NCBI GenBank assembly: GCA_943737045.1
Contig: CALSFV010000001.1
Coordinates: 62,001-126,000 of the forward strand
Reading direction: 5' to 3'
Source: Parapristionchus giblindavisi
Taxonomy: Eukaryota; Nematoda; Chromadorea; Rhabditida; Diplogasteridae
Length of the DNA stretch: 64,000 nt
Made by a program: the position numbers and the translations under genes
Notes under the pieces: generated by a model
Told to the model about the DNA's origin: nothing
The model's database searches: none
The model's input: only the letters and a program-made list of their open reading frames with translations
Shown here: piece after piece, positions 1,337-55,408 of the stretch
Numbering within the stretch: position 1 is the stretch's first letter
How the letters are laid out: every line of letters begins with the position of its first letter

Positions 1337-1339
<3 letters not shown>

Positions 1340-1453
1340 GCACATAAGGTAGCATGTATAAAACAATTGTAGTGTATTTTAAACAACTGTTACTATATAT
1401 ATATATATATATTTTTTTAAAACTTAATGAACATTGAATATTCAAAAACTAAT

Positions 1454-2830: not shown

Positions 2831-3050
2831 TCATTGAATGAGAAACGAAACAATAATCAGAATGCAAGTCTGTTGGTACATCGACGAAGGTGATCTCACT
2901 AAACGGATGAGTCTATTCAACCATTCAACAGTTTGAGAGCTTATGGAAAGAGAAGAGCATGTAGAGATCGAATATGATGGAAGGAGAAATAGAGAATAGA
3001 TGAGAAGAGACGAAGAGAATAATGAAAGATCTGGACCAACCATGATTTCA

Positions 3051-3058
3051 TATAAAAG
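3051..3058 (+). promoter_or_regulatory. TATA box of family gene A
   Basis: TATAAAAG lies 102 bases before the ATG and follows a block reading AGATCTGGACCAACCATGAT. The same block plus TATAAAAG occurs before gene C (33,840-33,847). TATAAAAG also occurs before gene B (7102-7109), pseudogene D (46,752-46,759) and, inverted, before gene E (54,480-54,487). Conservation in five paralogues supports a real core promoter. Confidence 0.75.
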
Positions 3059-3151
3059 GGTACATAAGCATAAGAGAAATAAAATCATTATTTTTTTCTT
3101 TTCTCTCGGATTCGATCTTGTTTTTATAACTCAGTTACAAATGATTGAATA

Positions 3152-3157
3152 TTTCAG
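3152..3157 (+). promoter_or_regulatory. Splice acceptor directly upstream of the start codon
   Basis: TTTCAG ends only three bases before ATG (TTTCAGATAATG). The same arrangement is kept in genes B, C and D. In nematodes this is the usual signature of an outron acceptor for trans-splicing of a spliced leader. No upstream donor is evident between the TATA box and this site, which favours trans-splicing over a 5' UTR intron. The leader used cannot be read from genomic DNA. Confidence 0.65.
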
Positions 3158-3160
3158 ATA

Positions 3161-4582: not shown

Positions 4583-4589
4583 TTAGTAT

Positions 4590-7100
4590 ACAATACTATA
4601 TCACATTTTGTATGTAATGATTTACTCGCAATATCACTTTGTTGAACTCATGATAAAGAAAATTTCTAGTTTTCGGTTTTATGTCAAGCGTTTTTGATAT
4701 AATGATGAAAAGTATAATAATAATAATAATAATACTTTATTATTATTGGGTACGTAATTAAAATCGGATAAAATCCGATATAATTTCTGATATAATGATT
4801 TCTGATATAATGATGACAAGGATGAATATCAGATACAATCCTTTTTTTATCTGTAGCATTTCCTCATTGAAAGGGGATGAGAAAGGATTAGTCATCTTGC
4901 AATCCATAATTGTAAATGCAAAATCATTGTGACGAAACATTATGTTTTCCCTACAGATTCGCAGCAATGCACGAAAACAGAATTTTCAAGAGAGAACTGA
5001 TCGTTTGGTGAAAATTTTCAATTAAACTGTGTTGACTGATGTACATGAAAACGGACATATCAATTTCTAAATAGAGAAAGAGCCAAAAACTCCAGAGTTG
5101 TAGCGAGAGATTCGGATAGGATGATGGGAACAAAATGTTTGGCATACTTGTTTATTTTGAACTTGTGAAACAAGTATTTTGACATTTATTAATAAAAAAT
5201 TTTTTTCAGGAAGCATAATGTGTGTAACTCCAAAACGGCTACAACAAAGATGGGCATAGCAATTTAAGCCCCAGTGGTCCCGCGACGCCTGCGTGTTAAG
5301 GTTTTCAAGCCGTTCTCGGTCCAGCTAGAGGTCTAAAAATTGGGTTCATGTGGCAGAATTCGATGGTGATCACTGATGACGACTGTCTACTTCATTTGTC
5401 ATTGAAAACATTCCAAAAATTTGGAAAATGCAACTTTTGATGGAGACGGTTGCGCCACTATCGAGTTCTACAGTTCGAACCGGCGTGACGATGTTTCCAA
5501 TGATGCACTTTGAGCTCATATCTCCTCTCTCTAGAAGAAAATCTGCATATAAATAAAATAAAATACATATATCTTTGGTCGAATAAATAAACAAAATAAA
5601 TTCCTTGCACCATTATATCGATGACGTTCGTTAGCTGAATGTTTCGCTGATGGCTGCTGTTACAATAATTCTTTATGGTATTTTTTTTTCATTGGGTAGA
5701 GGTTCACTGTCTAGAAATTTATGGCCGAAGCAGTGGATCTCGCCTCTACTAATAACTACTTTTGATTCATTAATATCTAATTTTATGAGTACATTTGCAT
5801 GTTTTACTATGATATATCGGCAGTATTTTCTAGTATGAAGACAAGTATTTGCGAAATATCGTACACGTTATTACTACTGTGTCATATCCGCTAATTGTTA
5901 ACATAACAAAAATATAATTATCGAGTGATTTAGAATCATAAACTAATGTCTACGAAGCGACGAAATACCAGAGTAATTCTTGAGTTCCTCATCATACGTT
6001 TACTAAAAATGTTTAAAAAATTCTTTGCAAGGGCATTATAACATCACTCTTCACATCCCCATTCAATGTATAGTATTGAATACTTGCGATCTTTAATCTT
6101 TAATCTTTGATCTATTAGAGGTTGTTCCTACCGACTACTTCTATGACTCTCACCGTTTCATCATCGACGCTGAGGCTTGCTTCGAACTCAAGCACACTTT
6201 CTCCATCTCTTCTTTTGTAAGATCACAAAGAGCAAAGATCAAAGATGTAATAAAATCACAGACTGATATTCCTCTTCGTGGTCAATAAGGTGCATCAACT
6301 TTTTAAACTATTCATTTATCGTACACCACAAGGGTGTGTCATCAAGTACAAAGTGTACGAGTGCAATAGAATATGTGAAATGTCAAAATCATTAAAAGTG
6401 GGGGATACGGGGATGGAGGAAGGTTGATCACGCACAGGAGCCTCAGGAAGAGTTGAAATGGGAGAAGCCTCTAGATCGTAGTGAACCGTAACCGTGAACT
6501 TCGCCACATTTCCATAGTTGCTAGATTAAAGAAGGAGACCCTTGAGTTAAAGAAGGAGACCCTTGAGCATGACTGACTCCCGCCACGATAAGCATGTCGA
6601 ATATTGTTTATATTATATGGTAGTTCTCGTAAGGGACAATGAGAAAATGAGAGAGCAAAGTATACAAATCGGATGGGCACTCTCTACATGTCTTTCGATT
6701 CGTTCGATGAATCTCTACCATTCTATCCGAACAGTCTTATTACGAAAAAACTCGAGGGTCTGCATCTTTAAGGTTGTTCGGATTACGGTCAAAAGTAAAA
6801 ATGGCTCACTCTTGATATAGTCTACAACGGGATGAGTTTCCTGATGTCAGCATTTCCGCGACCTCGTATGAGAGAGGAAACAAAAATCCGAGAATCTGTC
6901 TGTCAGTCTGTCACCAACTCTGTCGACACATACATAGACGCAGATGATAATACAAGATCGATGATTCAGTCTGTTCGACGGTTTGATAACTTATGAAAAG
7001 GGACTACGATGTAGTTAGCGAATCTGATGGGAGGGGAAATAGAGGCAATCCAACTAAGAGACGAAGAGAAGAATACCAGACATGGACCAACAAAGGTTTC
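4590..7100. other. Intergenic region between family genes A and B
   Basis: It contains a direct copy of the segment at 1598-1790 (about 4855-5035) and a TIR-type MITE (6535-6772). Open frames here, such as 5650-5838 and 5370-5594, lack recognisable domains, splice structure or paralogues. I see no gene. Confidence 0.5.
6535..6772 (+). mobile_element. MITE family 1 (AAAGAAGGAGACCC termini)
   Basis: It begins TTAAAGAAGGAGACCCTTGAG and ends CTCGAGGGTCTGCATCTTTAA, an imperfect inverted repeat of about 20 bases. The first 22 bases are tandemly repeated once. Related copies lie at about 7350-7565, 37,388-37,685, 43,360-44,000 (interrupted), 50,151-50,445 and 61,853-61,998. Ends in TTTAAA or TTAA are compatible with a TTAA-type target, but no transposase is present. 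Confidence 0.7.
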
Positions 7101-7213
7101 ATATAAAAGAGTACCATACCAATAAGATAAACCAAAGCATCTTCATTTTCCTTTTCTCCAGAATCCGATATTACTTTGACAACTCAGTTTCAAGTGATTG
7201 AATATTTCAGATA

Positions 7214-8688
7214 ATGTGTAAAATCATTATCGTATGGGTGTCTTTAATTGCACTCGCGTTTGCCTTCCCTGGAGGTCTCGGAGGCTGTGGGAATTGCTTT
7301 GGTTGTACTATTCTTATTCTTAGGGACCTTTTACCTTTTCAACAATTTTATCATAATACGAGTGAAAATGGGAAAGTGAGAGAGTCAAGTAGGCAAATCA
7401 GCCAGGCACTACTAGCCTTAAAAGTTGCACTTTCAATGCGCATGACAAGCTTCAAACATATCATCAGGCAATATGAAATGTGTCGTTCGGTTCGTGTGAT
7501 AAATCTCTATCAGTCAACCCGAACAGTATTGCTACGAAAAAACTCGACGGTCTCCATCTTTACAATATACAATCGCACACGAAGTCCTGCGGGTGCTTTT
7601 GCCTGTGCCTATTTTTCATTCGCAACGCGTAAAAGGTTGTATGCAAAAAAAGGTTTATTTCTCAAATCTTTTCGGCTATATTCGCTATCATCAGTTTGGT
7701 TTAGCGCCTGCATGGAAGACACTCACTGGTAATTCTCTGAGATATGCCAGTTAGGTATCCTGTCTTTAATAGAAATGATAGCTTATTCCAAACTCTCTCA
7801 AAAATACTTTTTTGTTTTCATTTCAACTCTTTTCATATTCAGGTCAACCACAAGGTCCTCCACCTCCTCCCTTCCTTCAGAATGTTTCCCTATATGCTCG
7901 TCATAACTTTTTCAAGATCTTCAATGTCAGTCATTTTACACTTTAGTTATTTATTTTATTTTATTTATTTATCCAACAGTTTTATAAATTATTGTTGATC
8001 AAATTATTTCAGGATCGTAAACTCACTAAGGGTGAGATCATGAACAAAGTCGCAGAGTGGGCAAAAAAATATTCAATTTCGGTGAGTGCAACAATACGAC
8101 TGGAATAGATTCATTTTGGAAAACACAATTTCTGTGTTTTCGAGCACTTGAAGAAGACTTGCAATGTGTTTTTCTTCGAATGGGGTGGATATTTCAATAT
8201 TTTGAATTTAAAAAAATATCAGAATACTTTATTGAAAATCGATAAACTGTGAGTAACTCTTGTAAAAATCGTTTCAGGAAAAAGTGACAGAATTCGAGAA
8301 GGAAATGGAAAATGAAAACAAAGAGCGGAGACAGGAAATCATGGATACTGTTGGACAGCTTGCTGATGCCATTACTACAGTAAGTTGAGGTTTTTCATAA
8401 ATACACTAATTCAGTAGGTCATATTAGCATAATAGCGGCTGATTTCAGTTGAATGCGATAGAAGATGATAAGAGCATCACTCCTTTTGAGACAATGAAGA
8501 AGATCACGGAAACGATTGATGGATTTTCCCCGGAACTGAGAGACTTGGTCCTCGCCACTGGCCATCCTCGCCATCCATTTCAAATAGGAGGACATGGACT
8601 AATGGGTGGATTTGGAGGATTCGGTGAAGGAGGAGCACAGAATGGATTCCAAGGTTTCGGTAACTTCGTTCCAATCGGACTTCATTGA
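7214..8688 (+). CDS. SXP/RAL-2-like secreted protein, copy B
   Basis: Five exons, 7214-7274, 7843-7925, 8013-8081, 8278-8379 and 8449-8688, join in frame to about 184 residues. The signal peptide is MCKIIIVWVSLIALAFA. Next come a proline run (PQGPPPPPFLQN), the helical DUF148-like core (DRKLTKGEIMNKVAEW, then EKVTEFEKEMENENKERRQE and the LNAIEDD...SPELRDLVLA helix pair), and a shortened glycine-rich tail (GGHGLMGGFGGFGEGG) ending NFVPIGLH. That ending differs from GGRGGH(K/E)Y in the other copies. Intron 1 is enlarged by a MITE family 1 copy. The exon 1 donor is the least certain boundary: GTCTCG after 7274 fits the phase, and GTTGTA about 20 bases later is an alternative. TTTCAG precedes the ATG and a TATA box lies at 7102. 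Function in nematodes is unsettled; these are abundant secreted proteins. Confidence 0.8.
7350..7565 (+). mobile_element. MITE family 1 copy inside intron 1 of gene B
   Basis: Shares AATGGGAAAGTGAGAGAGTC, CAATGCGCATGACAAGCTTC and the end GGTCTCCATCTTTA with the complete copy at 50,151-50,445. The 5' terminus is degraded. It accounts for most of the extra length of this intron compared with genes A and C. Confidence 0.65.
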
Positions 8689-17039: not shown

Positions 17040-17627
17040 AGTATAAAACACAACAAAGAGAACTCTCATCAGCAATCGAAAACGTGATATTCAAGTGTGG
17101 GCTCTAATCCGCCTTAGCGTAGGTGCATTTTCATTTCTATGTACTCGACAGATCACACTTCAGAGAATGTGGAATACACATTGTAACATAACTGGTAGTA
17201 TCATGAATTTTTCAATATCGTAAATTGTCATATATATGAATAGGCGATAGGGAAATTCTGATATATGCTGCTAGAAAAATATCCCTTGCAATATTATTGA
17301 AATTTGACCAAAATCAACCACAATCTACATATGAAGACCCGCACTCCCCTCCCACTTCTCACTCCCCAATTCCTACCACCCACTTTCCCGATAATCCTAT
17401 TCACTTATTTATTATTCGTTTCAAATGTTGTCACATCTTTATTGGATGTATGATAAATAAATAAATAAATAAATGATTTTCCTCATGTCAGCAATTCAAC
17501 TAACATGTATGAGAAACGAAATAATAATCAGCATCTTTCTGTCTATCACAAGTTTTTGAGTACATAGAGTATACAGATGATCATACAAAATCGATGAGTC
17601 AGCCTGTCCCATAGTTTGATAGCTTAT
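17040..17627 (+). repeat. 5' flank of gene C, homologous to the flank of gene E
   Basis: Blocks such as CAGCAATCGAAAACGTGATAT and the run at 17,500-17,620 match the inverse of about 54,600-55,030 upstream of gene E. The stretch ending AGTTTGATAGCTTAT is continued by ATGGAAAGAGAAGGCCATG on the far side of the large foldback. This shows that the region before and after the 15.6-kb element was once contiguous. Confidence 0.65.
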
Positions 17628-18154
17628 AAGAGGCCTTAGAATAAGAAAGTGGCGTAGAATGAGATGAAGATCGATTTTAGCCAACTCTGACGACGTCGGA
17701 TTTGGCATGCCAATAAAGCAGTGTGCAATGTTGTCATGTGTATGAAATTGTACAATTGCCAATTTTGATTCTTTATTTATTGTCTTCCAGTGAGAAACAA
17801 GAAAATGACAAATAATCAATGATCAATGTTGGCAGACTTTTTGTTGCCAATAATGCATCTTGAATAATTGGCAAGTGGGTGAGGTAGAGGATGTAGCCAA
17901 AATTGACGGCAGCCATTTTGTCACGGGAAATGGAGACAAATTTGACGATGTAAATGTTGGCATGGCCAATAATGATCCATTCGTTTTTGGCGCATCGAAC
18001 GTTGACAATATTGAAAGCAGCACAATTGGCGGAAACGTTAAAATTCATTTCCGCCAATAATTCTGCGATCAAAATTGGCAAATTACTTTTCCGGGTGGAA
18101 TGCCAATAATGCAATGTTCTAATTAGGCAAGGTCAGGAAAATTCGGAAATGCCA

Positions 18155-18680
18155 TTTTTGATGGCGTCATTATTGGCAGAAAGGCTTCACTCAGATTTTG
18201 CCAACATTGACGCCGTCATTATTGGCAAGAAAGGCTTCACTCAGATTGTGCCAACTTTGACGCCGTCATTATTGGGCCAAAAATGACGCCGTCATTATTG
18301 GCCCAATTATGACGCCGTCATTATTGGCAGAAAGGCTTCACTCAGATTTTGCCAACATTGACGCCGTCATTATTGGCAGAAAGGCTTCACTCAGATTTTG
18401 CCAACATTGACGCCGTCATTATTGGGCCAAAAATGACGCCGTCATTATTGGCCCAATTATGACGCCGTCATTATTGGCAGAAAGGCTTCACTCAGATTTT
18501 GCCAACATTGACGCCGTCATTATTGGCAGAAAGGCTTCACTCAGATTTTGCCAACATTGACGCCGTCATTATTGGCAGAAAGGCTTCACTCAGATTTTGC
18601 CAACATTGACGCCGTCATTATTGGGCCAAAAATGACGCCGTCATTATTGGCCCAATTATGACGCCGTCATTATTGGCAAC
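18155..18680. repeat. Left tandem array with GACGCCGTC dyads
   Basis: About 14 occurrences of GACGCCGTCATTATTGG. They alternate between units of about 49 bases (with CAGAAAGGCTTCACTCAGAT) and short units of about 25 bases (GGGCCAAAAATGACG, GGCCCAATTATGACG). The inverse array is at 32,254-32,780 with a different unit order and number, indicating unequal exchange after the arms formed. Outer flank sequence is also rich in AATTGGC and TTTGGC words. Confidence 0.9.
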
Positions 18681-18902
18681 TTTGACTACTATTAATGATT
18701 AAAATCTAAAAGGCAACAATTTAGCGTAGAGATATTGCACGTGGTCTACGTGAGCAGGAAAGAGTGGAGAGATGGTAGGGATGAAATAGAAGTATGGGAT
18801 GATAAAAAATCAATAATATATGATACAGTAAGACAACATCCAATCGTGACTAAGGTAGTAATCAAGTAAGTGTGAAGTAGGACAGACAAGGTGGAGATCA
18901 AT

Positions 18903-19008
18903 AAAATATTATACTGTACAAGGGTGCATTTGAACGGCGAGCTCGCTTCATTGAACGTTGAAGTCGCGGACTTATGTCTGGTGGGCGGCCGTGATGACCG
19001 GCTGGTCC
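18903..19008 (-). other. Terminal exon-like piece in left foldback arm
   Basis: Mirror of 31,928-32,036. See that entry. Confidence 0.35.
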
Positions 19009-19070
19009 TGAAACGAAAAAAACGTTTGATTACTGTAGCCAACTAATCGATATTTCAATCAAGTACACTC

Positions 19071-19317
19071 GCTTAAAGAAGGGAACCCTCGAATTTTTTC
19101 GTAACTAAACTGGTCAGGTTAAAGATCACATCTTCCAGAATACAAAAACAATGTTTCAGAATCCAAGCTCAAAGTTCGTTGATGTACCAATGAAACACCA
19201 GGGAATGAACGATTTTTAATATTTGAAATAAAATATATTGAAAATTGCAAACGGGAATCGAACTCGCGTGGCACGGTTACTAGCACTGACTACTAACCGC
19301 TGAGCTATATGGGTGAC
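19071..19317 (-). repeat. SINE-like repeat with tRNA-derived head (left arm copy)
   Basis: The minus-strand head at 19,247-19,317 has an A-box-like TAGCTCAGCGGTTAG and a B-box GAGTTCGATTCC, but its acceptor arms do not pair. The body and tail follow (CTTCCAGAATACAAAAACA, TTCGTAACTAAACTGG..., ending CTTTAAG). The mirror copy is at 31,618-31,866 and a divergent copy at 51,374-51,640. Confidence 0.7.
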
Positions 19318-19429
19318 ACTTTCAGCCTCGCGAATCTGATAGAGAATAGAATTCCACATCGTTGATCCCACGTTCTTCATTATAATATCCATACATTTTT
19401 GGTGCCCTCACCGAATTGTTTTTATATAG

Positions 19430-22160
19430 TTGGTCGATTTAGAAAAATCGTTATTTTTCGCAAAAATTGTAATCTTTCACAAAAAAATGAGCATTATATA
19501 GTGGGTCAACCCTGAAAATGCGCCGTATATCACGGATCTCCTGTAAGAATGAAAGAAGCCAACCGACAGTTTTAAATTTTATATCACCGATTTGGATGAA
19601 ACTTATTTGATTAATCGTAATGAGGGAAATGAGAAGGCTTAGGCACTTGATTTCGCCAAATTTGCATTTCTATCGATTTTTTGATCTACCACTTCGGGGA
19701 GCCATATCTCACTCAAATTTTGACCTAAAGCAAAATTTTTTTTCTTTTCAATCGACTCGAAATGAACTAATCTTGAAGTTACTATGCGGAATGTATGGGC
19801 GAAAACGCCATCTTCTACCTGTTTTCTTCGAAAAACTGATTTTTTTCAGTACATTATGCTAATTTTCTCAAAATGTTTCAACAAAGGGTACGATTTTTAT
19901 TCGCGATTCTGATTCCCCATCCCCGAATTGAGGTAAGCATATATTTCATAATCCGTAACTCACGACAAGCCATATCGATCCTCAGAGTGGACCCGGACTT
20001 TGTGGACCCGGAATTCCCAATTATGGTATACCAATCGAAAGATCTCGGGGGGCGCCCGTTTCGGCAACGAGTTATAAATCGGTTGGGAGAAGGCCTATGG
20101 AAACAAAAGTTGCACCATTGTTATCAGTGTGGTGTACGGTATGGTGATACCGTAACCGTCGGGAATCGTGAACTGATTTTTTAGTCGACCCATGACCGGG
20201 GTTCATGGTTGAAAATGGCCGAAGTCGAAAAATTCATGATATTCCGAGACCAAATACTAGTTGCCATAATATCAATAGTGAGCCAACTTTTATCTTTATG
20301 GTTACCGTAACCCGAACTACCGTAATCAAACCGGGATTTGAAGCGCATTTGGCCATATTATTGCAGGTTACGGTAGCTAGATTACGGTAGTACGGGTTAC
20401 GGTATCCATAAAGATAAAAGTTGGCTCACTATTGATATAATTGCAACTAGTATTTGATCTCGGGTCATCATGAATTTTTCGACTTTGGCCATTTTCAACG
20501 ATGAACCCCGTCATGGGTCGACTAAAAAATCAGTTCACGATTCCCGACGGTTACGGTATCACCATACCGTACACCACACTGATAACAATGGTACAACTTT
20601 TGTTTCCATAGACCATCTCCTAACCGATTTATAACTCGTTGCCGAAACGGGCGCCCCCCCCCCCCAAGATCTCGACGAGCTCTATAAAAATTACTTAACA
20701 GTAAAAGTCATGAAAGTTGACCGATTTCAAGATATGCTTGAAAATCCGTTTTTGCACTACCAAATTGCTGTGCAATGCAATCGATTCGCAAAGGAACGTT
20801 CTTTGCTTTCTCCTTTGTGTTTTTTGCACTCTTTCCTCCTTCCCTGACACCCTCTTCCCCTCTCTTTGCATGCAGTCAGTGCTCTTCCAGCTTCATTCGA
20901 CACTCGAATCTCCTCCAGCACATCGACAACGGGGGAGCACAATATCAGTCCCGAGAAGATATCTCAGTACGATTTCGCCCTCGGTCTCTACAAGCGAAAG
21001 CTCGAGGAAGTGCAGCAAGGAGTAGGAATCTATCTTCTCGTTGAGTCTTTCAAGGAGTACCAGCAAGCTGCTGATCATCCCAAGCCGATGGGATGGGCAC
21101 TGATGATCACGAAGAAAGGAGGTAAGTACAACCAGAAGGCTGGATGATATGCTCATGGATTTGGTGGAGGAAGAGATTCAGACCGAGGAGGAGGTCGATG
21201 TGGAAGAGGATAATAGAGAGAGAGGGGGGAAGAGATAATCACTGCTGAGGCTATCTATAATTTCGTTCACAGTGATCTCAAGGAGTATTTCAATGATCCG
21301 GATATTTTTTTCGATCATTCCGATTCCGATATCGGAAATATCGATGAGTAGTTTCGTATTTCAGAATGCGTATTTGCAATAATGAATATCTCAGATAAAC
21401 CTTTTTGCTGTTTTATTTGTTACCCTTTCCTATAATATTATTAGAAAATAATGTTAAAAACACAAACTGGAGAAAGCAAAGAACGTTTTTGGTAGTGCAA
21501 AAACGGATTTTCAAGCATATCTTGAAAACGGTCAACTTTCATGACTTTTACTGTTAGGTCATTTTTATAGAGCTCATCGAGATCTTTCGATTGGTATACC
21601 ATAATTGGGAATTTGCATGACAATGAGGAGAGGTGATATAAGAAATGCATTTTTGAATAAAAATAACGAAAAGTCCGGGTTTACTCTGAGGATCGATATG
21701 GCTTGTCGTGAGTTATGAATTATGGAATATGTGCTTACCTCAATTCGAGGATGGAGAATCAGAATCGCGAATTAAAATCGTACCCTTTGTTGAAAAGTTT
21801 TGAGAAAATTAGCCTAATGTACTGAAAAAATCAGTTTTTCGAAGAAAACAGGTAGAAGATGGCGTTTTCGCCCATACATTCCGCATAGTAACTTCAAGAT
21901 TAGTTCATTTCGAGTCGATTGAAAAAAACATTTTTTGCTTTAGGTCAAAATTTGAGTGAGATATGGCTCCCCGAAGTGGTAGATCAAAAAATCGATAAAA
22001 ATGCAAATTTAGCGAAATCAAGTACTTCGGCCTTCTCATTTCCCTAATAACGATTAATCAAACAAGTATCATCCAAATCGGTGAGATAAAATTTAAAACT
22101 GTCGGGAAAAGGTCTCATTTTCCTACGTTTCTACAGGAGATCCGTGATATAGTGGGTCAT
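19430..22160. mobile_element. Nested foldback within the left arm
   Basis: Sequence from about 19,430 to 20,040 recurs inverted at about 21,570-22,160 (shared CGACAGTTTTAAATTTTAT, CATTTCGAGTCGATTGAAAA, GGCTTGTCGTGAGTTA). A further palindrome, 20,046-20,662, lies inside it around TACCGTAACC sequence. The mirror of the whole nest is at about 28,770-31,510. Its centre carries the unknown ORF at 20,891-21,121. Confidence 0.75.
20891..21121 (+). CDS. Spliced ORF of unknown origin (left arm)
   Basis: Exon-like open frame with acceptor TCTTCCAG before 20,891 and donor GTAAGT after 21,121. It translates to ...HNISPEKISQYDFALGLYKRKLEEVQQGVGIYLL... and ...HPKPMGWALMITKKGG. The composition is that of a real soluble, partly helical protein. 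Downstream, acidic frames (VEEEIQTEEEVDVEEDN, then HSDLKEYFNDPDIFFDHSDS ending in a stop at about 21,350) suggest a C-terminus broken by frameshifts. I recognise no family. A mirror copy lies at 29,816-30,047 in the right arm. It may be a degenerate transposon gene or captured host sequence. Confidence 0.4.
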
Positions 22161-22460
22161 TCCTCACACTGTGAGGGTATGAAAATGTATGATAATATCG
22201 CGCCCTAAATCTCCTTGTTCCCATTTCTTTAATGTTACTTTTAATCATTCAAAATAATCACATAAACGCAAATTGTGGTTGAACGTGGAAAGCTACAGTA
22301 TTCTGTAGATAGTATTCTGGCTGAATGCAGAATAAAGCTCAGACATACGCTTACATGTCGGCGCCCATGTATAAGACAAATCGTAGTCATTTTACAGTAT
22401 ACCGTAACCCTGATCGTTGACCCTCTACCGTAACCCTGATCTTTGATCCTCTACCGTAAC

Positions 22461-22651
22461 CATACATGGGCGGAGTACCTGGAGCTCGATTCTACAGGGG
22501 GCATCCGACCGAAAAATGGTCAATTTTACAGGGGGCTTTCACTTTTTTTCTAAAAAAATTCACCTAAACGTCATTTTTATAAGGGGCATTCCACAAATTT
22601 TCGAAAAGCCTTAATTTTACAGGGGGCACCCCCATGTCGGCGCCCATGTGT
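22461..22651 (+). mobile_element. MITE family 4 copy (left arm)
   Basis: CATACATGGGCGGAGTACC at the start and GGCGCCCATGTGTG at the end, like the copy at 11,134-11,325. It is embedded in a cluster of TACCGTAACC-type repeats separated by TGATC(T/G)TTGA spacers (22,400-22,790). Confidence 0.7.
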
Positions 22652-23921
22652 GACCGTAACCCTGATCGTTGACCCTCTACCGTAACCCTGATCTTTGATC
22701 CTCTACCGTAACTCTTATGTTTATTCTTCTACAATAACCCTAGTCTTTGATCTTCTACCGTAACCCTTACTGATCTTTGATCTTTACCTGAGTCAGAGTG
22801 CACGCTACTGCGACCGTATCCTGTTCGAGCAGTGCGAGTCGACGGAAGACCGCCTTGAAGGCGTCCACGGGGCTTCGATTTGTGACTACAAATGACATAA
22901 TTGATAGTTGTTTTAAGACAAATTTCTCTCTTGTGCGATCAATGACATTAGCAAAATGGGAGCACGCCGTCACGTAAACCAGCGTTATATTGCGCCTACG
23001 TACACATATCCACGTCCATTTTGGAGCATACATTTCTGGTTTTCCTCATCGGATTGTTTTATATAGTTAGCCGATTTTCGAAATACAGTGGGTCAGTTTA
23101 GAAAAATCGTTATTTTTCGCTTAAATTGTAATCTTTCATATAAAAAATACCCTTATAGCATTATATGGTGGGTGGATCCTCACTTTGTGAGGGTATGCAA
23201 ATGTATGATTTTGGAATGTTTTAGGGCGAACTCGAAAACGGAGATTGGTATACGGTAAGAGGTTATAGTAACCATCAATCAAAAATGGTTGATAACCGTA
23301 ATCTTTTACAGTAATTTTATGACAATCAATAATCGGCTACCGTACCTTCTCCCCACTATGCTATGGTGCTCGCATTCCAATACTGCTCTCATTCGACATA
23401 ACATCGTTGATCGTACTTCCACCTGAGAGCAATCGATAATCAGACAATAATTGACGAAAAAAATATTAATCGGGTTCCCTAGAACTGAAAGCCGTCATTT
23501 CTCTACTTCAATTTATGTCCTAAAACCAGCTAAAAACGACACAGAAGCTGTTCGGCCATGTCCTCTTTCTTTCATGTTTCAACATAATCAAAATACGTGT
23601 CCACACAATATTTACACAAATGTGTAATCAAGAATAAAGGAACAAGTAATCCCTACGGTGGCATTCACATTTCCAAAAAAACCATCACATGCATGCATTT
23701 TCGAGCATCCATATTGTGGGTACGGCTCAGTTTATCATTTTGGTTGGCTTATAAAAAACGGGTGAATTTACCGATTTTGGTTACAAAAAGAGCGAACAAT
23801 GAACAATTTTTGGGAAATACTGCAAGCCTCCAAACTTGGGTGACTTCTGCCTATTACAATCAATACTTTGGACCCACAGTAGTCAATCGTTAATTGATAA
23901 TTAATCGGTAATTGGACTGAC

Positions 23922-24983
23922 CTTCATCATATCCATGATGAAGCTGCCCGTGCCGTGTTTGGCCCAAATTTGGACGACTGGGGGGTGGCCGAACCAGAAG
24001 CCATACGTATACCTGGAACAATAAAACCATCACTATATCGATTTTGAATGGATTTACAGCAAAAATTAACTTAAAACAGATTCATGTAATCGTAAATTAG
24101 TCAATATTTTTATTATTTAAGAAATATACTGTAACGATCGATTGAAAGCACAAAACTACAATCGTAAATTATTCGATATATCGATTTTTAGTACACATTC
24201 TGTCACCGTACAACAGATAGTATAACGATTTTAATAGATTTTTGTAATTATTGATTGCCAACTGACCGGTAGACCTTATCTCCAGATTGTTTGGTATTCT
24301 TCGGTTGAGGTGCACTGAAGTCATGATGTGGGTAGCACATCTCGATTTCCTTCTGTTCATCTTTCTTCTTCTGGAATAAGAACCGGTTAACATCACATTA
24401 TAAACTAATCATAACAGGAAAAGAGTGGGTTCTGTTCGTTGCCCAATGATTTATTTATTGTTTCAACATAAGTTCCAAGCATTGTAAACAGGAAGCATGT
24501 GTAATAACTTTAAAGGAACTCCGCGAGCGCATCTACTCTACGCTCTTGCAATCTTGCAACGCTCTCTCATAGACAAAAGCAAGGGAGAACTGCCAGAACG
24601 GATGGTTTCACAATAGCTCGGAATACGCGTGTAAACAAAACAAGACTTCCTGTTAATAACGTATAAGCAACCCAGCATGACACCCTCCACTCCTGTTTAG
24701 CCTCTCAGACGACAAGGAATTTAATAAATTGTACGTTAAAAAACGAAATATTGGTACACGCACATTAAAGCTAACACTATAAAATATTAATCAAATTAAA
24801 TCAATAATTGTGCCTTATGGTATATGTAAAACAACATGATAAATAGACGCTCACTTCCTCCGTTAGACGGCTGCCATGTTTGATTCCGCCGGACACAAAG
24901 TTGACTGGTCCAGTAAAGTTTGGCTTTCTGTGTCGTCGATCACGACGACTTCCATCGGCGAGGTCCTCGTCGTGCACACATAC
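23922..24983 (-). CDS. TFIP11/STIP-1-like gene fragment, left arm copy
   Basis: Mirror image of 25,882-26,936. Exons 24,855-24,983, 24,267-24,370 and 23,922-24,012 have the same splice sites and phases. One visible difference is FGH in place of FGR in the third exon. See the right-arm entry for the domain argument. Confidence 0.45.
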
Positions 24984-25396
24984 CTTAAATAGGAATTTAT
25001 GTATCAATTATAATCATTCTTAATTTAATTATTTAAAGATACAGAAGAACTGAGCGAAAAGAATTCAAGAACAGAATCACATTCGTTACAAATTGCATTG
25101 CACTTTCTATCTAAGTTTTTCTATCTATCTAAGTTCTATCTATTTCATTATAACAATGAGGCTCGTGGCATTGAAATATACGTACCATAAATGGATTTAC
25201 TCTATGGAGTGGCAACGGCATCGAGGATTGAGCGTGCTTTCCAAGTTTCGGTCATGGATCGAGAACGATTCCTTGCTGTCTCTGTCCTCCGTTCTAGAAG
25301 ACGGAAAGCACTTAACATAAAATGAAAATCGAGAAGTATCAAACAGAACGTAGATAATCAAAAGCAAATTACAAAAAATACGAAAAAAACGACCGT

Positions 25397-25468
25397 AACT
25401 CACGACTGTGTTTTAGTTTTAGTTTGACGTTTTTGACTACAGAATGAAGTAATTGCTATCATGAACTG
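25397..25468. other. 72-bp unique centre of the 15.6-kb foldback
   Basis: Non-palindromic spacer (starting AACTCACGACTGTG) between the two arms, whose innermost sequence is ...AAAACGACCGT and ACGGTCGTTTT.... Loops this short between arms of 7.8 kb are expected to be unstable, so the structure may be recent or under-represented in reads. Confidence 0.85.
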
Positions 25469-25881
25469 ACGGTCGTTTTTTTCGTATTTTTTGTAATTTG
25501 CTTTTGATTATCTACGTTCTGTTTGATACTTCTCGATTTTCATTTTATGTTAAGTGCTTTCCGTCTTCTAGAACGGAGGACAGAGACAGCAAGGAATCGT
25601 TCTCGATCCATGACCGAAACTTGGAAAGCACGCTCAATCCTCGATGCCGTTGCCACTCCATAGAGTAAATCCATTTATGGTACGTATATTTCAATGCCAC
25701 GAGCCTCATTGTTATAATGAAATAGATAGAACTTAGATAGATAGAAAAACTTAGATAGAAAGTTCAATGCAATTTGTAACGAATGTGATTCTGTTCTTGA
25801 ATTCTTTTCGCTCAGTTCTTCTGTATCTTTAAATAATTAAATTAAGAATGATTATAATTGATACATAAATTCCTATTTAAG

Positions 25882-26936
25882 GTATGTGTGCACGACGAGG
25901 ACCTCGCCGATGGAAGTCGTCGTGATCGACGACACAGAAAGCCAAACTTTACTGGACCAGTCAACTTTGTGTCCGGCGGAATCAAACATGGCAGCCGTCT
26001 AACGGAGGAAGTGAGCGTCTATTTATCATGTTGTTTTACATATACCATAAGGCACAATTATTGATTTAATTTGATTAATATTTTATAGTTTTAGCTTTAA
26101 TGTGCAATATTTCGTTTTTTAACGTACAATTTATTAAATTCCTTGTCGTCTGAGAGGCTAAACAGGAGTGGAGGGTGTCATGCTGGGTTGCTTATACGTT
26201 ATTAACAGGAAGTCTTGTTTTGTTTACACGCGTATTCCGAGCTATTGTGAAACCATCCGTTCTGGCAGTTCTCCCTTGCTTTTGTCTATGAGAGAGCGTT
26301 GCAAGATTGCAAGAGCGTAGAGTAGATGCGCTCGCGGAGTTCCTTTAAAGTTATTACACATGCTTCCTGTTTACAATGCTTGGAACTTATGTTGAAACAA
26401 TAAATAAATCATTGGGCAACGAACAGAACCCATTCTTTTCCTGTTATGATTAGTTTATAATGTGATGTTAACCGGTTCTTATTCCAGAAGAAGAAAGATG
26501 AACAGAAGGAAATCGAGATGTGCTACCCACATCATGACTTCAGTGCACCTCAACCGAAGAATACCAAACAATCTGGAGATAAGGTCTACCGGTCAGTTGG
26601 CAATCAATAATTACAAAAATCTATTAAAATCGTTATACTATCTGTTGTACGGTGACAGAATTTGTACTAAAAATCGATATATCGAATAATTTACGATTGT
26701 AGTTTTGTGCTTTCAATCGATCGTTACAGTATATTTCTTAAATAATAGAAATATTGACTAATTTACGATTACATGAATCTGTTTTAAGTTAATTTTTGCT
26801 GTAAATCCATTCAAAATCGATATAGTGATGGTTTTATTGTTCCAGGTATACGTATGGCTTCTGGTTCGGCCGCCCCCCAGTCGTCCAAATTTGGGCCAAA
26901 CACGGCACGGGCAGCTTCATCATGGATATGATGAAG
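25882..26936 (+). CDS. TFIP11/STIP-1-like gene fragment, right arm copy
   Basis: Three exons join in one frame: 25,882-26,010 (43 codons, phase 0 to 0), 26,488-26,591 (phase 2 out) and 26,846-26,936 (phase 0 out). Exon 1 contains GPVNFVSGGIKHG, which resembles the conserved PVNF(I/V)S(A/G)G(L/I)K motif of tuftelin-interacting protein 11 (STIP-1 in nematodes), a spliceosome disassembly factor. Exon 3 ends IWAKHGTGSFIMDMMK, resembling the W..HTKGIG..L..KM start of the G-patch. Closer to the centre (about 25,560-25,660) the frame FSIHDRNLESTLNP resembles the N-terminal F.(I/V).D..LEN.(F/L)NP motif, but its splice to exon 1 was not resolved. Later TFIP11 regions were not identified. The fragment is duplicated in mirror image, head to head, so it looks captured and not a working gene. 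Confidence 0.5.
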
Positions 26937-27435
26937 GTCAGTCCAATTACCGATTAATTATCAATTATCGATTGACTACTGTGGGTCCAAAGTATTGATT
27001 GTAATAGGCAGAAGTCACCCAAGTTTGGAGGCTTGCAGTATTTCCCAAAAATTGTTCATTGTTCGCTCTTTTTGTAACCAAAATCGGTAAATTCACCCGT
27101 TTTTTATAAGCCAACCAAAATGATAAACTGAGCCGTACCCACAATATGGATGCTCGAAAATGCATGCATGTGATGGTTTTTTTGGAAATGTGAATGCCAC
27201 CGTAGGGATTACTTGTTCCTTTATTCTTGATTACACATTTGTGTAAATATTGTGTGGACACGTATTTTGATTATGTTGAAACATGAAAGAAAGAGGACAT
27301 GGCCGAACAGCTTCTGTGTCGTTTTTAGCTGGTTTTAGGACATAAATTGAAGTAGAGAAATGACGGCTTTCAGTTCTAGGGAACCCGATTAATATTTTTT
27401 TCGTCAATTATTGTCTGATTATCGATTGCTCTCAG

Positions 27436-28071
27436 GTGGAAGTACGATCAACGATGTTATGTCGAATGAGAGCAGTATTGGAATGCGAGCACCATAGCAT
27501 AGTGGGGAGAAGGTACGGTAGCCGATTATTGATTGTCATAAAATTACTGTAAAAGATTACGGTTATCAACCATTTTTGATTGATGGTTACTATAACCTCT
27601 TACCGTATACCAATCTCCGTTTTCGAGTTCGCCCTAAAACATTCCAAAATCATACATTTGCATACCCTCACAAAGTGAGGATCCACCCACCATATAATGC
27701 TATAAGGGTATTTTTTATATGAAAGATTACAATTTAAGCGAAAAATAACGATTTTTCTAAACTGACCCACTGTATTTCGAAAATCGGCCAACTATATAAA
27801 ACAATCCGATGAGGAAAACCAGAAATGTATGCTCCAAAATGGACGTGGATATGTGTACGTAGGCGCAATATAACGCTGGTTTACGTGACGGCGTGCTCCC
27901 ATTTTGCTAATGTCATTGATCGCACAAGAGAGAAATTTGTCTTAAAACAACTATCAATTATGTCATTTGTAGTCACAAATCGAAGCCCCGTGGACGCCTT
28001 CAAGGCGGTCTTCCGTCGACTCGCACTGCTCGAACAGGATACGGTCGCAGTAACGTGCACTCTGACTCAGG
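27436..28071 (+). other. Further exon-like frames in right arm
   Basis: The piece 27,436-27,511 (VEVRSTMLCRMRAVLECEHHS) has acceptor CTCAG and donor GTACGG. The piece 27,972-28,070 has acceptor TTTGTAG and donor GTAAAG and reads NRSPVDAFKAVFRRLALLEQ in its best frame. Their phases do not join cleanly in that frame and neither matches a TFIP11 region I know. Mirror copies are at about 23,347-23,422 and 22,788-22,886. Confidence 0.3.
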
Positions 28072-28206
28072 TAAAGATCAAAGATCAGTAAGGGTTACGG
28101 TAGAAGATCAAAGACTAGGGTTATTGTAGAAGAATAAACATAAGAGTTACGGTAGAGGATCAAAGATCAGGGTTACGGTAGAGGGTCAACGATCAGGGTT
28201 ACGGTC

Positions 28207-28397
28207 ACACATGGGCGCCGACATGGGGGTGCCCCCTGTAAAATTAAGGCTTTTCGAAAATTTGTGGAATGCCCCTTATAAAAATGACGTTTAGGTGAAT
28301 TTTTTTAGAAAAAAAGTGAAAGCCCCCTGTAAAATTGACCATTTTTCGGTCGGATGCCCCCTGTAGAATCGAGCTCCAGGTACTCCGCCCATGTATG
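28207..28397 (-). mobile_element. MITE family 4 copy (right arm)
   Basis: Inverse of the copy at 22,461-22,651. The neighbouring TACCGTAACC-type repeat track has more units here (28,400-28,540) than in the left arm, one cause of the arm length difference. Confidence 0.7.
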
Positions 28398-29815
28398 GTT
28401 ACGGTAGAGGATCAAAGATCAGGGTTACGGTAGAGGGTCAACGATCAGGGTTACGGTAGAGGGTCAACTATCAGGGTTACGGTAGAGGGTCAAAGATCAG
28501 GGTTACGGTAGAGGGTCAAAGATCAGGGTTACCGTATACTGTAAAATGACTACGATTTGTCTTATACATGGGCGCCGACATGTAAGCGTATGTCTGAGCT
28601 TTATTCTGCATTCAGCCAGAATACTATCTACAGAATACTGTAGCTTTCCACGTTCAACCACAATTTGCGTTTATGTGATTATTTTGAATGATTAAAAGTA
28701 ACATTAAAGAAATGGGAACAAGGAGATTTAGGGCGCGATATTATCATACATTTTCATACCCTCACAGTGTGAGGAATGACCCACTATATCACGGATCTCC
28801 TGTAGAAACGTAGGAAAATGAGACCTTTTCCCGACAGTTTTAAATTTTATCTCACCGATTTGGATGATACTTGTTTGATTAATCGTTATTAGGGAAATGA
28901 GAAGGCCGAAGTACTTGATTTCGCCAAATTTGCATTTTTATCGATTTTTTGATCTACCACTTCGGGGAGCCATATCTCACTCAAATTTTGACCTAAAGCA
29001 AAAAATGTTTTTTTTCAATCGACTCGAAATGAACTAATCTTGAAGTTACTATGCGGAATGTATGGGCGAAAACGCCATCTTCTACCTGTTTTCTTCGAAA
29101 AACTGATTTTTTCAGTACATTAGGCTAATTTTCTCAAAACTTTTCAACAAAGGGTACGATTTTAATTCGCGATTCTGATTCTCCATCCTCGAATTGAGGT
29201 AAGCACATATTCCATAATTCATAACTCACGACAAGCCATATCGATCCTCAGAGTAAACCCGGACTTTTCGTTATTTTTATTCAAAAATGCATTTCTTATA
29301 TCACCTCTCCTCATTGTCATGCAAATTCCCAATTATGGTATACCAATCGAAAGATCTCGACGAGCTCTATAAAAATGACCTAACAGTAAAAGTCATGAAA
29401 GTTGACCGTTTTCAAGATATGCTTGAAAATCCGTTTTTGCACTACCAAAAACGTTCTTTGCTTTCTCCAGTTTGTGTTTTTAACATTATTTTCTAATAAT
29501 ATTATAGGAAAGGGTAACAAATAAAACAGCAAAAAGGTTTATCTGAGATATTCATTATTGCAAATACGCATTCTGAAATACGAAACTACTCATCGATATT
29601 TCCGATATCGGAATCGGAATGATCGAAAAAAATATCCGGATCATTGAAATACTCCTTGAGATCACTGTGAACGAAATTATAGATAGCCTCAGCAGTGATT
29701 ATCTCTTCCCCTCTCTCTCTCTATTATCCTCTTCCACATCGACCTCCTCCTCGGTCTGAATCTCTTCCTCCACCAAATCCATGAGCATATCATCCAGCCT
29801 TCTGGTTGTACTTAC

Positions 29816-30047
29816 CTCCTTTCTTCGTGATCATCAGTGCCCATCCCATCGGCTTGGGATGATCAGCAGCTTGCTGGTACTCCTTGAAAGACTCAACGAG
29901 AAGATAGATTCCTACTCCTTGCTGCACTTCCTCGAGCTTTCGCTTGTAGAGACCGAGGGCGAAATCGTACTGAGATATCTTCTCGGGACTGATATTGTGC
30001 TCCCCCGTTGTCGATGTGCTGGAGGAGATTCGAGTGTCGAATGAAGC
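29816..30047 (-). CDS. Spliced ORF of unknown origin (right arm)
   Basis: Mirror copy of 20,891-21,121 with the same acceptor, donor and translation. No residue difference is seen in the open frame. Confidence 0.4.
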
Positions 30048-31617
30048 TGGAAGAGCACTGACTGCATGCAAAGAGAGGGGAAGAGGGTGTCAGGGAAGGA
30101 GGAAAGAGTGCAAAAAACACAAAGGAGAAAGCAAAGAACGTTCCTTTGCGAATCGATTGCATTGCACAGCAATTTGGTAGTGCAAAAACGGATTTTCAAG
30201 CATATCTTGAAATCGGTCAACTTTCATGACTTTTACTGTTAAGTAATTTTTATAGAGCTCGTCGAGATCTTGGGGGGGGGCGCCCGTTTCGGCAACGAGT
30301 TATAAATCGGTTAGGAGATGGTCTATGGAAACAAAAGTTGTACCATTGTTATCAGTGTGGTGTACGGTACGGTGATACCGTAACCGTCGGGAATCGTGAA
30401 CTGATTTTTTAGTCGACCCATGACCGGGGTTCATCGTTGAAAATGGCCAAAGTCGAAAAATTCATGATGACCCGAGATCAAATACTAGTTGCAATTATAT
30501 CAATAGTGAGCCAACTTTTATCTTTATGGATACCGTAACCCGTACTACCGTAATCTAGCTACCGTAACCTGCAATAATATGGCCAAATGCGCTTCAAATC
30601 CCGGTTTGATTACGGTAGTTCGGGTTACGGTAACCATAAAGATAAAAGTTGGCTCACTATTGATATTATGGCAACTAGTATTTGGTCTCGGAATATCATG
30701 AATTTTTCGACTTCGGCCATTTTCAACCATGAACCCCGGTCATGGGTCGACTAAAAAATCAGTTCACGATTCCCGACGGTTACGGTATCACCATACCGTA
30801 CACCACACTGATAACAATGGTGCAACTTTTGTTTCCATAGGCCTTCTCCCAACCGATTTATAACTCGTTGCCGAAACGGGCGCCCCCCGAGATCTTTCGA
30901 TTGGTATACCATAATTGGGAATTCCGGGTCCACAAAGTCCGGGTCCACTCTGAGGATCGATATGGCTTGTCGTGAGTTACGGATTATGAAATATATGCTT
31001 ACCTCAATTCGGGGATGGGGAATCAGAATCGCGAATAAAAATCGTACCCTTTGTTGAAACATTTTGAGAAAATTAGCATAATGTACTGAAAAAAATCAGT
31101 TTTTCGAAGAAAACAGGTAGAAGATGGCGTTTTCGCCCATACATTCCGCATAGTAACTTCAAGATTAGTTCATTTCGAGTCGATTGAAAAGAAAAAAAAT
31201 TTTGCTTTAGGTCAAAATTTGAGTGAGATATGGCTCCCCGAAGTGGTAGATCAAAAAATCGATAGAAATGCAAATTTGGCGAAATCAAGTGCCTAAGCCT
31301 TCTCATTTCCCTCATTACGATTAATCAAATAAGTTTCATCCAAATCGGTGAAATAAAATTTAAAACTGTCGGTTGGCTTCTTTCATTCTTACAGGAGATC
31401 CGTGATATACGGCGCATTTTCAGGGTTGACCCACTATATAATGCTCATTTTTTTGTGAAAGATTACAATTTTTGCGAAAAATAACGATTTTTCTAAATCG
31501 ACCAACTATATAAAAACAATTCGGTGAGGGCACCAAAAATGTATGGATATTATAATGAAGAACGTGGGATCAACGATGTGGAATTCTATTCTCTATCAGA
31601 TTCGCGAGGCTGAAAGT

Positions 31618-31866
31618 GTCACCCATATAGCTCAGCGGTTAGTAGTCAGTGCTAGTAACCGTGCCACGCGAGTTCGATTCCCGTTTGCAATTTTCAATAT
31701 ATTTTATTTCAAATATTAAAAATCGTTCATTCCCTGGTGTTTCATTGGTACATCAACGAACTTTGAGCTTGGATTCTGAAACATTGTTTTTGTATTCTGG
31801 AAGATGTGATCTTTAACCTGACCAGTTTAGTTACGAAAAAATTCGAGGGTTCCCTTCTTTAAGCGA
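31618..31866 (+). repeat. SINE-like repeat with tRNA-derived head (right arm copy)
   Basis: Head 31,618-31,690: GTCACCCATATAGCTCAGCG, A-box TAGCTCAGCGGTTAG, B-box GAGTTCGATTCC. The 3' side GTTTGCA does not pair with GTCACCC, so no cloverleaf forms. The tail ends CCCTTCTTTAAG. Confidence 0.7.
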
Positions 31867-31927
31867 GTGTACTTGATTGAAATATCGATTAGTTGGCTAC
31901 AGTAATCAAACGTTTTTTTCGTTTCAG

Positions 31928-32036
31928 GACCAGCCGGTCATCACGGCCGCCCACCAGACATAAGTCCGCGACTTCAACGTTCAATGAAGCGAGCTCGCCG
32001 TTCAAATGCACCCTTGTACAGTATAATATTTTATTG
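31928..32036 (+). other. Terminal exon-like piece (right arm)
   Basis: Acceptor TCGTTTCAG is followed by an open frame GPAGHHGRPPDISPRLQRSM and KRARRSNAPLYSII, ending in TGA at 32,036. The basic run is NLS-like. GC-rich against its surroundings, it looks like a last exon of a host gene. Its source and its link to the TFIP11-like exons in the same arm are unknown. Confidence 0.35.
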
Positions 32037-32253
32037 ATCTCCACCTTGTCTGTCCTACTTCACACTTACTTGATTACTACCTTAGTCACGATTGGATGTT
32101 GTCTTACTGTATCATATATTATTGATTTTTTATCATCCCATACTTCTATTTCATCCCTACCATCTCTCCACTCTTTCCTGCTCACGTAGACCACGTGCAA
32201 TATCTCTACGCTAAATTGTTGCCTTTTAGATTTTAATCATTAATAGTAGTCAA

Positions 32254-32780
32254 AGTTGCCAATAATGACGGCGTCATAATTGGGCCAATAATGACGGCGT
32301 CATTTTTGGCCCAATAATGACGGCGTCAATGTTGGCAAAATCTGAGTGAAGCCTTTCTGCCAATAATGACGGCGTCAATGTTGGCAAAATCTGAGTGAAG
32401 CCTTTCTGCCAATAATGACGGCGTCATAATTGGGCCAATAATGACGGCGTCATTTTTGGCCCAATAATGACGGCGTCAATGTTGGCAAAATCTGAGTGAA
32501 GCCTTTCTGCCAATAATGACGGCGTCATAATTGGGCCAATAATGACGGCGTCATTTTTGGCCCAATAATGACGGCGTCAATGTTGTCAAAATCTGAGTGA
32601 AGCCTTTCTGCCAATAATGACGGCGTCATAATTGGGCCAATAATGACGGCGTCATTTTTGGCCCAATAATGACGGCGTCAAAGTTGGCACAATCTGAGTG
32701 AAGCCTTTCTTGCCAATAATGACGGCGTCAATGTTGGCAAAATCTGAGTGAAGCCTTTCTGCCAATAATGACGCCATCAA
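32254..32780. repeat. Right tandem array with GACGGCGTC dyads
   Basis: Inverse counterpart of 18,155-18,680: about 15 GACGGCGTC dyads in AATGACGGCGTCA contexts with AATCTGAGTGAAGCCTTTCT spacers. The order of long and short units differs from the left arm. A 470-base outer segment with scattered AATTGGC words leads to the terminus. Confidence 0.9.
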
Positions 32781-33363
32781 AAATGGCATTTCCGAATTTT
32801 CCTGACCTTGCCTAATTAGAACATTGCATTATTGGCATGATTAAATTTTCCGAAAAATGCCAATTACGACTTCGAATATATTGGCGAAACGACATTTTGA
32901 GAATATCGCCAATATTGACAGCTGCAACTTTGGCATCTTTCAAATAATCTAGTTGAACGTTTGTCTGCCAATTATGATCCCGTCACTATTGTCAATTATC
33001 TGTTCTCACCCTCTGTGCCAATGTTTCAGTCTTCGTTTTTGTCCATCGATTGTATTTTACCAAATGCCAATAATGAAGCTTTATAATTTGGTTAGCATTT
33101 CACGAGCCAATAAAACACTTTGCATATTTGGCAAACAGACAGCTTTATAGAAATGCCAACAATGAACACGTCGACATTGTCAGTCACCTTCTGCCACATT
33201 CGACGTCGTCAGAATTGGCACAAATCATGATTTTTTCATTCTACGCCACTTTCTTATTCTAAGGCCTCTTTTATGGAAAGAGAAGGCCATGTAGAGAACG
33301 AATCTGATGGGAGGAGAAATAGAGAAAAGAGATGAAGAGACGAAGAGAAAAATAAAAGATCTG

Positions 33364-33819
33364 GGGTCTGTCCAATCTGTCAAAAAAAGATGCGAACAAA
33401 GTTGCGAACAAAGTTCGCAACTTTGTTCGCATCTTTTTCTCTAAATCTCTCGAAATACACGCTCTCTAATTCTCTCTAACAAAAGATGCGAACAAAGTTG
33501 CGACCAAAAGATGCGAACAAAGTTGCGAACTTTGTTGCGAGGTCGGTTAGAGCAGGCGAGAGAGTGTGCATTTGAAGAGGAGCAGAATAAGTAATGCCCG
33601 TTTACTTTTTCTGCTCCTCTTCAAATGCACACTCTCTCGTCTGCTCTAACCGACCTCGCAACAAAGTTCGCAACTTTGTTCGCATCTTTTGGTCGCAACT
33701 TTGTTCGCATCTTTTGTTAGAGAGAATTAGAGAGCGTGTATTTCGAGAGATTTAGAGAAAAAGATGCGAACAAAGTTGCGAACTTTGTTCGCATCTTTTT
33801 TGACAGATTGGACAGACCC
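33364..33819. mobile_element. 456-bp palindromic MITE with CTG target duplication
   Basis: Termini GGGTCTGTCCAATCTGTCA and its inverse; the interior is a palindrome of GATGCGAACAAAGTTGCGAA-type words and CTCTCTCGNCTGCTCTAACC. CTG flanks both sides (33,361-33,363 and 33,820-33,822). The paralogous promoter of gene A reads AAAGATCTGGACCAACC, which is exactly the site with a single CTG, so insertion into the gene C promoter is demonstrated to the base. It lies about 20 bases upstream of the gene C TATA box. Confidence 0.9.
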
Positions 33820-33839
33820 CTGGACCAACCATGATTTTA

Positions 33840-54487: not shown

Positions 54488-55408
54488 TTAAATCATTGTT
54501 GGTCCAGATCTTTTATTTTTCTCTTCGTCTCTTCTTCCCTTTTCTCTATTTCCCCTCCCATCACATTCGAACTCTACATGGCCTCCCCTCTTCATAAGCT
54601 ATCAAACTATTGAATAGGCTGACTCAGCGGTTTTGTGTGGCCATCTGTCTACTCTATGTACTCAAAGACTTGTGATAGGCAGACAGATGCTGATCACTGT
54701 TTCTTTTTCTCATACAAGTTGGTTGGATTGTTGACATCTGGAAATGTTAATGCTGCTTTTGGTCAAATTTCAATGATTGGATTTTTCAGAACAGTACAGA
54801 TCAGAATTTACATGTCGCCTATTCATATACATGACAATTTACGATAAAGAAAAAAGTTAAGATACTGTCTGTTATTTTTGAATGTGTATTCCATATTCTC
54901 GTGTGATCTGCCAAGTACATTGGAAAGGAAATGCACCTACGCTAAAGCGGATTATAGCTCTCATTTGAATATCACGTTTTCGACTGCTGATGAGAGTTAT
55001 TTTTGTTGTGTTTTTAGACGTGTTTTTAATCGTTTCATAATATTTTCTCAGTCCTATTATCTCTTTCATCGGGTCAAGCTTTCTATGCAATTATTGCTTC
55101 ATTTGGAATAGCCACAAATATTTTAATTATAATCGCTACGTCTAGGAATTCGTAAGTTTTTAAAGGCACACCACGAACCAATATGAAACGCTAACTCGCA
55201 GACAAAAGAAGCGAGCGAGAATTACCAAAGCGGAAAGTTCCAAATTACCGGGGCTTTAAAGCAAATTTCCGGGAGTCTTGTTTTCAAGACTCCCTCCCTG
55301 TTGACGTCATGAATTCTGGAATTTATTTATTTTCTCATAATTCATTCCACATTTTTTAGTCGGCTCCGAAGTTCTTGTAATTATCTCTTAGCGTTGAGTG
55401 CTTTCTGT

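Follow-up and report, generated by a model that had tools for sequence, protein, structure and literature searches.

The foldback element at positions 17628-33270 (15,643 bp) of the window, the 64,000-nucleotide stretch of Parapristionchus giblindavisi DNA that we analyzed, is not unique; it belongs to a family of giant foldback DNA transposons with many copies in the genome. We give a probability of a little under four in five to a reading in which this family is likely mobilized in trans, duplicates 4 bp at CATATG-like target sites, and has arms that are likely kept alike by gene conversion between them. Below, W denotes the copy in the window, and C-numbers (C388, C13, C298 and so on) denote other copies in the genome.

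The window copy and its family

The bounds of W are exact, and its parts lie as follows, in window positions.

17624..17627, no strand: left target-site duplication TTAT, directly before the first element base
17628..17662, + strand: left 35-bp terminal inverted repeat, an exact match to the reverse complement of 33236-33270
17628..18099, + strand: left-specific end (L type), common to other copies and unlike the R end
18100..25396, + strand: left mirror arm, from the arm alignment
18158..18679, + strand: tandem array of the left arm, in ~49/26-bp units
19530..22147, + strand: nested transposon A in the left arm, with ends TCACGGATCTCCTGTA, a TA duplication and exon-like frames inside
25397..25468, no strand: 72-bp centre between the arms, exact
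25469..32838, - strand: right mirror arm, from the arm alignment
28789..31405, - strand: nested transposon A in the right arm, mirrored at the same place, from the arm comparison
32259..32780, - strand: tandem array of the right arm, in ~49/26-bp units
32839..33270, - strand: right-specific end (R type), from the comparison of ends among copies
33236..33270, - strand: right 35-bp terminal inverted repeat, an exact match to the left one
33271..33274, no strand: right target-site duplication TTAT, directly after the last element base

The initial annotation had read W as a foldback transposon with a 4-bp duplication, describing exact inverse termini, TTAT on both sides, a 72-base centre and outer tandem arrays, and all of this was borne out. 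The terminal repeats are identical over bases 1-35 and mismatched at base 36. Each arm is built of four layers, namely the 35-bp inverted repeat, ~440 bp that are unlike on the left and right, the tandem array, and the long mirrored arm, and the mirror spans from ~18100/32838 inward to the centre. The two arrays align with each other only with gaps of ~50 columns; inward of them, the arms differ by 14 mismatches and 6 gap events over 6,684 aligned bases (99.79% identity). Of the mirrored arms as first described, the long mirror stands, but not as a single simple mirror: the ends are unlike and the arms homogenized.

When the flanks of W were joined with one TTAT and used as a query, they matched uninterrupted repeats at three places in the window.

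54504..54744, - strand: best paralogous empty site, with a single TTAT; 208/241 identical (86%) to the joined flanks
2835..3034, + strand: second paralogous empty site, 74% identical to the joined flanks
6832..7075, + strand: third paralogous empty site, 74% identical to the joined flanks

Thus, the target of W was a dispersed repeat, in which its insertion duplicated 4 bp. The second of these is the empty site that had been placed near 2937 before; it is real, though only 74% similar, and the site at 54504-54744 is the better one.

A search of the genome with the termini, as the initial annotation had proposed, uncovered many other copies. In the 251-Mb assembly, the 30-base terminus has 96 matches at up to two mismatches, and its reversed control has none, which excludes a chance origin of the termini. 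At three mismatches there were 251 matches against 150 for the control, and these were discounted for that reason; all of those among the matches listed are exact. Queries of the host genome with the L end and the R end gave at least 40 scored matches each. Among the matches listed, 130 ends pair into at least 51 elements of 984-24,089 bp, with 28 ends left without a partner, and at least 41 of the paired copies are 10 kb or longer (median 16.7 kb). Additional copies with diverged ends appear in two further genome searches. In the same genome, the nematode SL1 leader, taken as a 22-mer, has 351 exact matches and its control 0, which marks the host as a nematode.

The count of 41 large copies is one of paired ends; a complete reading of five of them (W, C388, C13, C298 and C222) showed long mirrored arms in each. 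In the smaller copies C212, C235, C10 and C203, the mirrored fraction is 37-75% of the length. Both flanks were read for 43 copies, and 40 of these carry an identical 4-bp flanking duplication (38 ATAT, 1 TTAT and 1 ATGT); none of the 43 matches at 5 bp, and in C35, C203 and C423 the 4-bp flanks do not match. The base before the duplication is C in 31/43 copies, and the base after it is G in 27/43. W and the other copies read share the build of the foldback structural class, with long inverted arms, tandem sub-repeats and a variable middle, and they are dispersed as that class is, by the duplications in 40/43 copies and the empty sites of W.

Inverted duplication of an ordinary genomic segment, with no transposon involved, could produce a long inverted repeat by itself, and a lack of other genomic copies had been named beforehand as the finding that would point to it. 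With 96 terminus matches and at least 51 paired elements, that objection falls. The termini and duplications shared by many copies across the genome, together with the empty sites of W, already refute this origin, to which we assign next to no probability. We also considered whether C7 and C388 could be one site with a flipped element. Their flanks match over only 661 and 893 of 1,500 bases; as these flanks match in part and are themselves mirror-like, the two were counted as separate insertions into a repeat.

Insertions in both arms and in one

The arms were compared in depth in four copies. Transposon A (2.6 kb) occupies an identical base position in the two arms of W, and the arm alignments of C388 and C13 continue across it; in both arms of C298 its site is uninterrupted, with one substitution. 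Conversely, transposon B (~1 kb, duplication not clean) is present in both arms of C298, and its site is uninterrupted in W; the alignments of W, C388 and C13 pass straight through it in both arms. The arms are common to the groups with transposon A and with transposon B, so the palindrome is older than both insertions, each of which later came to be present twice.

Other insertions are found in one arm only. The left arm of C298 carries a 5.4-kb insertion with a TTA duplication, and the corresponding site in its right arm is empty. The left arm of C13 carries three, of 2.2 kb (TA), 1.1 kb (TA) and 2.0 kb (TTAA), and again the right-arm sites are empty; the duplications of these one-arm insertions were read by eye from the junctions. 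In both arms of W, the sequences that flank the first and the third of these C13 insertions adjoin, and for the second site one flank was checked. C13 also has a right-only segment of ~0.3 kb without a clear duplication.

The exon-like frames of W had been taken for captured sequence. They lie instead inside transposon A, in both arms. By eye, one coding family recurs: transposon A of W contains its first part, the middle region of C652 contains its second part, and the first insertion of C13 contains both. A 114-aa piece of this recurring nested gene, the one piece searched, has no relative at E<=0.001, from which the exon-like sequence most likely belongs to the nested transposons. Since pieces of related coding sequence turn up in C13, in another nested element, and in the middle of C652, the frames look more like a gene carried by nested elements than one captured from the host.

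Unlike ends and like arms

Across the outer 450 bases of 18 copies, mean divergence is 0.8% between L ends and 1.9% between R ends, and 41.7% between L and R ends. C423, a related copy outside this set, is bounded by left-type ends on both sides, and its flanks are mirrored; the ends of a copy are therefore not always unlike. Immediately inward of the ends, the arms of a copy resemble each other: the mismatches between a copy's own left and right arms total 12 over 17 copies, compared with a mean of 65 and a minimum of 36 in 20,000 permutations. This test covers 17 of the 18 copies; C2 was left out, as the alignment of its left arm does not start at the first base. Together, W, C388 and C13 have 105 variable gap-free columns, of which 56 are mirrored, 49 are arm-private or mixed, and none is split between left and right. 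Because the family is young and near-identical, the nearest arm, with ties counted, is the partner in the same copy in just 10 of the 17 copies; we counted this figure, along with the 49 arm-private or mixed columns, against conversion.

Arm identity inward of the arrays is 99.79% in W and 99.86% in C388, and within single copies it can be uneven. In C298 there are 13 mismatches in 1177 outer bases (98.9% identity) and 7 in 5996 inner bases (99.88%; Fisher p 1.5e-6). In C222 the figures are 16 in 1063 (98.5%) and 1 in 3556 (99.97%; Fisher p 7.6e-10).

If a fold-back read or polishing had doubled one arm during assembly, arms as similar as the 99.8% of W, which is known from the assembly alone, would be expected, and the mirrored flanks of C423 would suit such an error as well. 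However, a doubled arm would not have unlike ends, arrays that align only with gaps, or insertions facing an empty site in the opposite arm, nor would it account for matching 4-bp duplications in 40/43 copies and intact empty sites. We regard an assembly artefact as very improbable. The unlike ends, the one-arm and mirrored insertions and the patchy identity together led us to reject both assembly fold-back and simple segmental duplication.

The mirror might instead be rebuilt in one step at each transposition, through a hairpin or replicative intermediate that copies one arm into the other, in which case mirrored cargo would mark copies that had moved after its insertion. Arms that are near-perfect throughout after the arrays, as in W and C388, are in keeping with this; unmirrored insertions could be later than the last move, and C423 could be a product of such copying. 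Patchy identity within C298 and C222 speaks against it, as does the retention of distinct L and R ends by the 18 copies in the comparison, and we consider one-step rebuilding unlikely.

Arm-to-arm gene conversion, by comparison, fits both the patchy identity and the occurrence of insertions in one arm and in both, and tract-like conversion fits the uneven identity better than rebuilding of the whole mirror at each move. In the model that we favor, a putative transposase supplied in trans would move family copies by acting on their two unlike ends, L and R, and would leave 4-bp duplications at CATATG-like sites. The two arms of a copy would pair and convert each other, and cargo landing in one arm would be copied to, or erased from, the other, so that elements could grow yet stay palindromic. 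The persistence of unlike ends suggests a requirement of the transposase for one end of each type. Counted against this model were the 3/43 unmatched duplications, the two left-type ends of C423, and the fact that no transposase or autonomous copy was recognized.

Long palindromes are expected to be unstable. Despite this, the genome still holds at least 41 paired copies of 10-24 kb, with ends that are young and near-identical. The natural series of one-arm insertions, mirrored insertions and patchy arms could yield the rate and tract length of palindrome conversion in a nematode. Rather doubtfully, we also entertain the idea that the family is a new lineage of giant palindromic transposons, with mirror capture by conversion, selection on the unlike ends, and an undescribed transposase that makes 4-bp duplications at CATATG and moves 15-24-kb cargo.

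Class membership and known systems

The initial annotation had suggested looking for a full-length copy that carries a transposase, and none was recognized in the copies read. An inspection of the longest open frames by eye yielded no recognizable transposase. For W, C388, C13 and C298 it took in one arm or the copy-specific region, for C652 the 8.3 kb at its middle, and for C222, C212, C235, C17, C10, C87, C203, C47, C214 (two) and C423 the entire copy. Thresholds were 75-110 aa, mostly with the longest 10-14 frames per copy, a procedure that intron-split genes could escape. The longest open frame of the W arm is 119 aa. A Pfam scan took in 10 chosen frames, comprising 3 of 14 from the W arm, 3 of 25 from the C13 region (>=75 aa) and 4 from C17. 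The 5.9-kb C17 was considered as an autonomous copy and rejected, as its reverse transcriptase (RT), RNase H and recombinase belong to a PAT-like element that is nested within it and has split repeats at its borders. DIRS/PAT membership was rejected likewise: RT, RNase H and tyrosine recombinase occur only in this nested C17 unit with its split direct repeats and were not seen in the other copies read. C203 contains a mariner-like frame (by eye) within a nested inverted-repeat unit.

The length of the duplication bears on several other classes. Mutator/Tm1 membership requires 9 bp, and was rejected with 4 bp in 40/43 copies and 0/43 reaching 5 bp. Tc1/mariner and Tc4/Tc5 duplicate TA or TNA, and were set aside because the TTAT and ATGT duplications and the TTAT empty sites require 4 bp. 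The family differs from Galileo in its 4-bp duplication and its unlike L and R ends; the Galileo duplication is 7 bp, and Galileo/P superfamily membership was rejected on that length. A Maverick/Polinton-like large element, degraded beyond recognition, would fall in a similar size range, but Maverick/Polinton duplications are 6 bp as opposed to the 4 bp here, and the longest W-arm open frame is of 119 aa; we find this origin extremely improbable. The C. elegans elements Tc4 and Tc6 are likewise nematode foldback elements, a few kb or less in size and with a shorter duplication, and W, as had been noted from the outset, is far larger. Our literature search, partial in its coverage, found no giant foldback family with a 4-bp duplication in nematodes.

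Sola elements have 4-bp, AT-rich duplications (including ATAT in Sola2), can exceed 15 kb, and have very variable ends (PMC3627910, PMC10741241). The duplications here are also of 4 bp and AT-rich, as in Sola2, and sizes above 15 kb are shared. Sola is, however, defined by a DDD transposase (PMC3627910, PMC10741241), and none of that type was recognized among the open frames inspected. The 4-bp AT-rich duplication recalls Sola, with membership unproven.

Tm1, a Mutator/Foldback family of root-knot nematodes, resembles the present family in being a foldback family of nematodes, in its composite inverted repeats, which vary in length, and in including MITE-like members (PMC3169594). It differs in its 9-bp duplications, against 4 bp here, and in having some copies that encode a Phantom/Mutator-type transposase (PMC3169594). 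Tetris, a foldback element of D. virilis, is similarly non-autonomous and modular, with internal tandem repeats, and no transposase copy was found for it (PMC4079207). Its duplications are 8-10 bp and its structurally complete copies three (PMC4079207), whereas here the duplication is 4 bp and the paired elements number at least 51.

The closest parallels are with Galileo in D. willistoni, which has foldback arms with tandem repeats and in which transposon insertions in one TIR become part of both (PMC4168063). Its longest copy there, copy 112, is 9,021 bp with 4.2/4.7-kb TIRs and lacks the transposase segment (PMC4168063). The family described here is in a nematode host and has at least 41 paired copies of 10 kb or more, up to 24 kb, and both reciprocal mirrored insertions and one-arm insertions are resolved to the base. 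The family appears to work like Galileo at a larger scale, with Galileo as a smaller precedent for mirrored capture.

Insertion points and ends of individual copies

Two family copies, at C7:1472835 and C388:203060, share an identical insertion point within a mirror-like repeat and lie in opposite orientation relative to that repeat. In the copy at C423:152690-158520, both ends are of the left type and the flanks are mirrored too, an arrangement that is either genuine, as an inverted duplication of larger extent, or an assembly error of the fold-back type.

Coding sequences nested within copies

Nested elements repeatedly carry one coding family, whose pieces we related by eye:

window 19530-22147, nested transposon A in the left arm of the window copy
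C13 copy, element coordinates ~5633-6180
L091 (the C652 copy locus), ~6456-7270

A database search with a single piece found no relative. At C17:606340-612320, the host is a small family member within which a PAT-like retroelement is nested (about 813-5814 of the locus), encoding a zinc knuckle, reverse transcriptase, RNase H and a tyrosine recombinase, and bearing direct repeats of the split type.

Other repeats in the genome and window

Short family members, ~0.85-1 kb as judged from end positions, are clustered on contig C204 (331-514 kb) of the host assembly. On contig C145, units of ~1.17 kb are repeated in a long tandem array that extends over about 26-83 kb among the matches listed, and every unit includes an exact SL1 (nematode spliced leader) sequence. 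The window itself contains several short palindromes (self-complementarity 79-92%), which may be other foldback or MITE elements:

56774-57321, short palindrome
43482-43934, short palindrome
45023-45490, short palindrome
33363-33820, short palindrome
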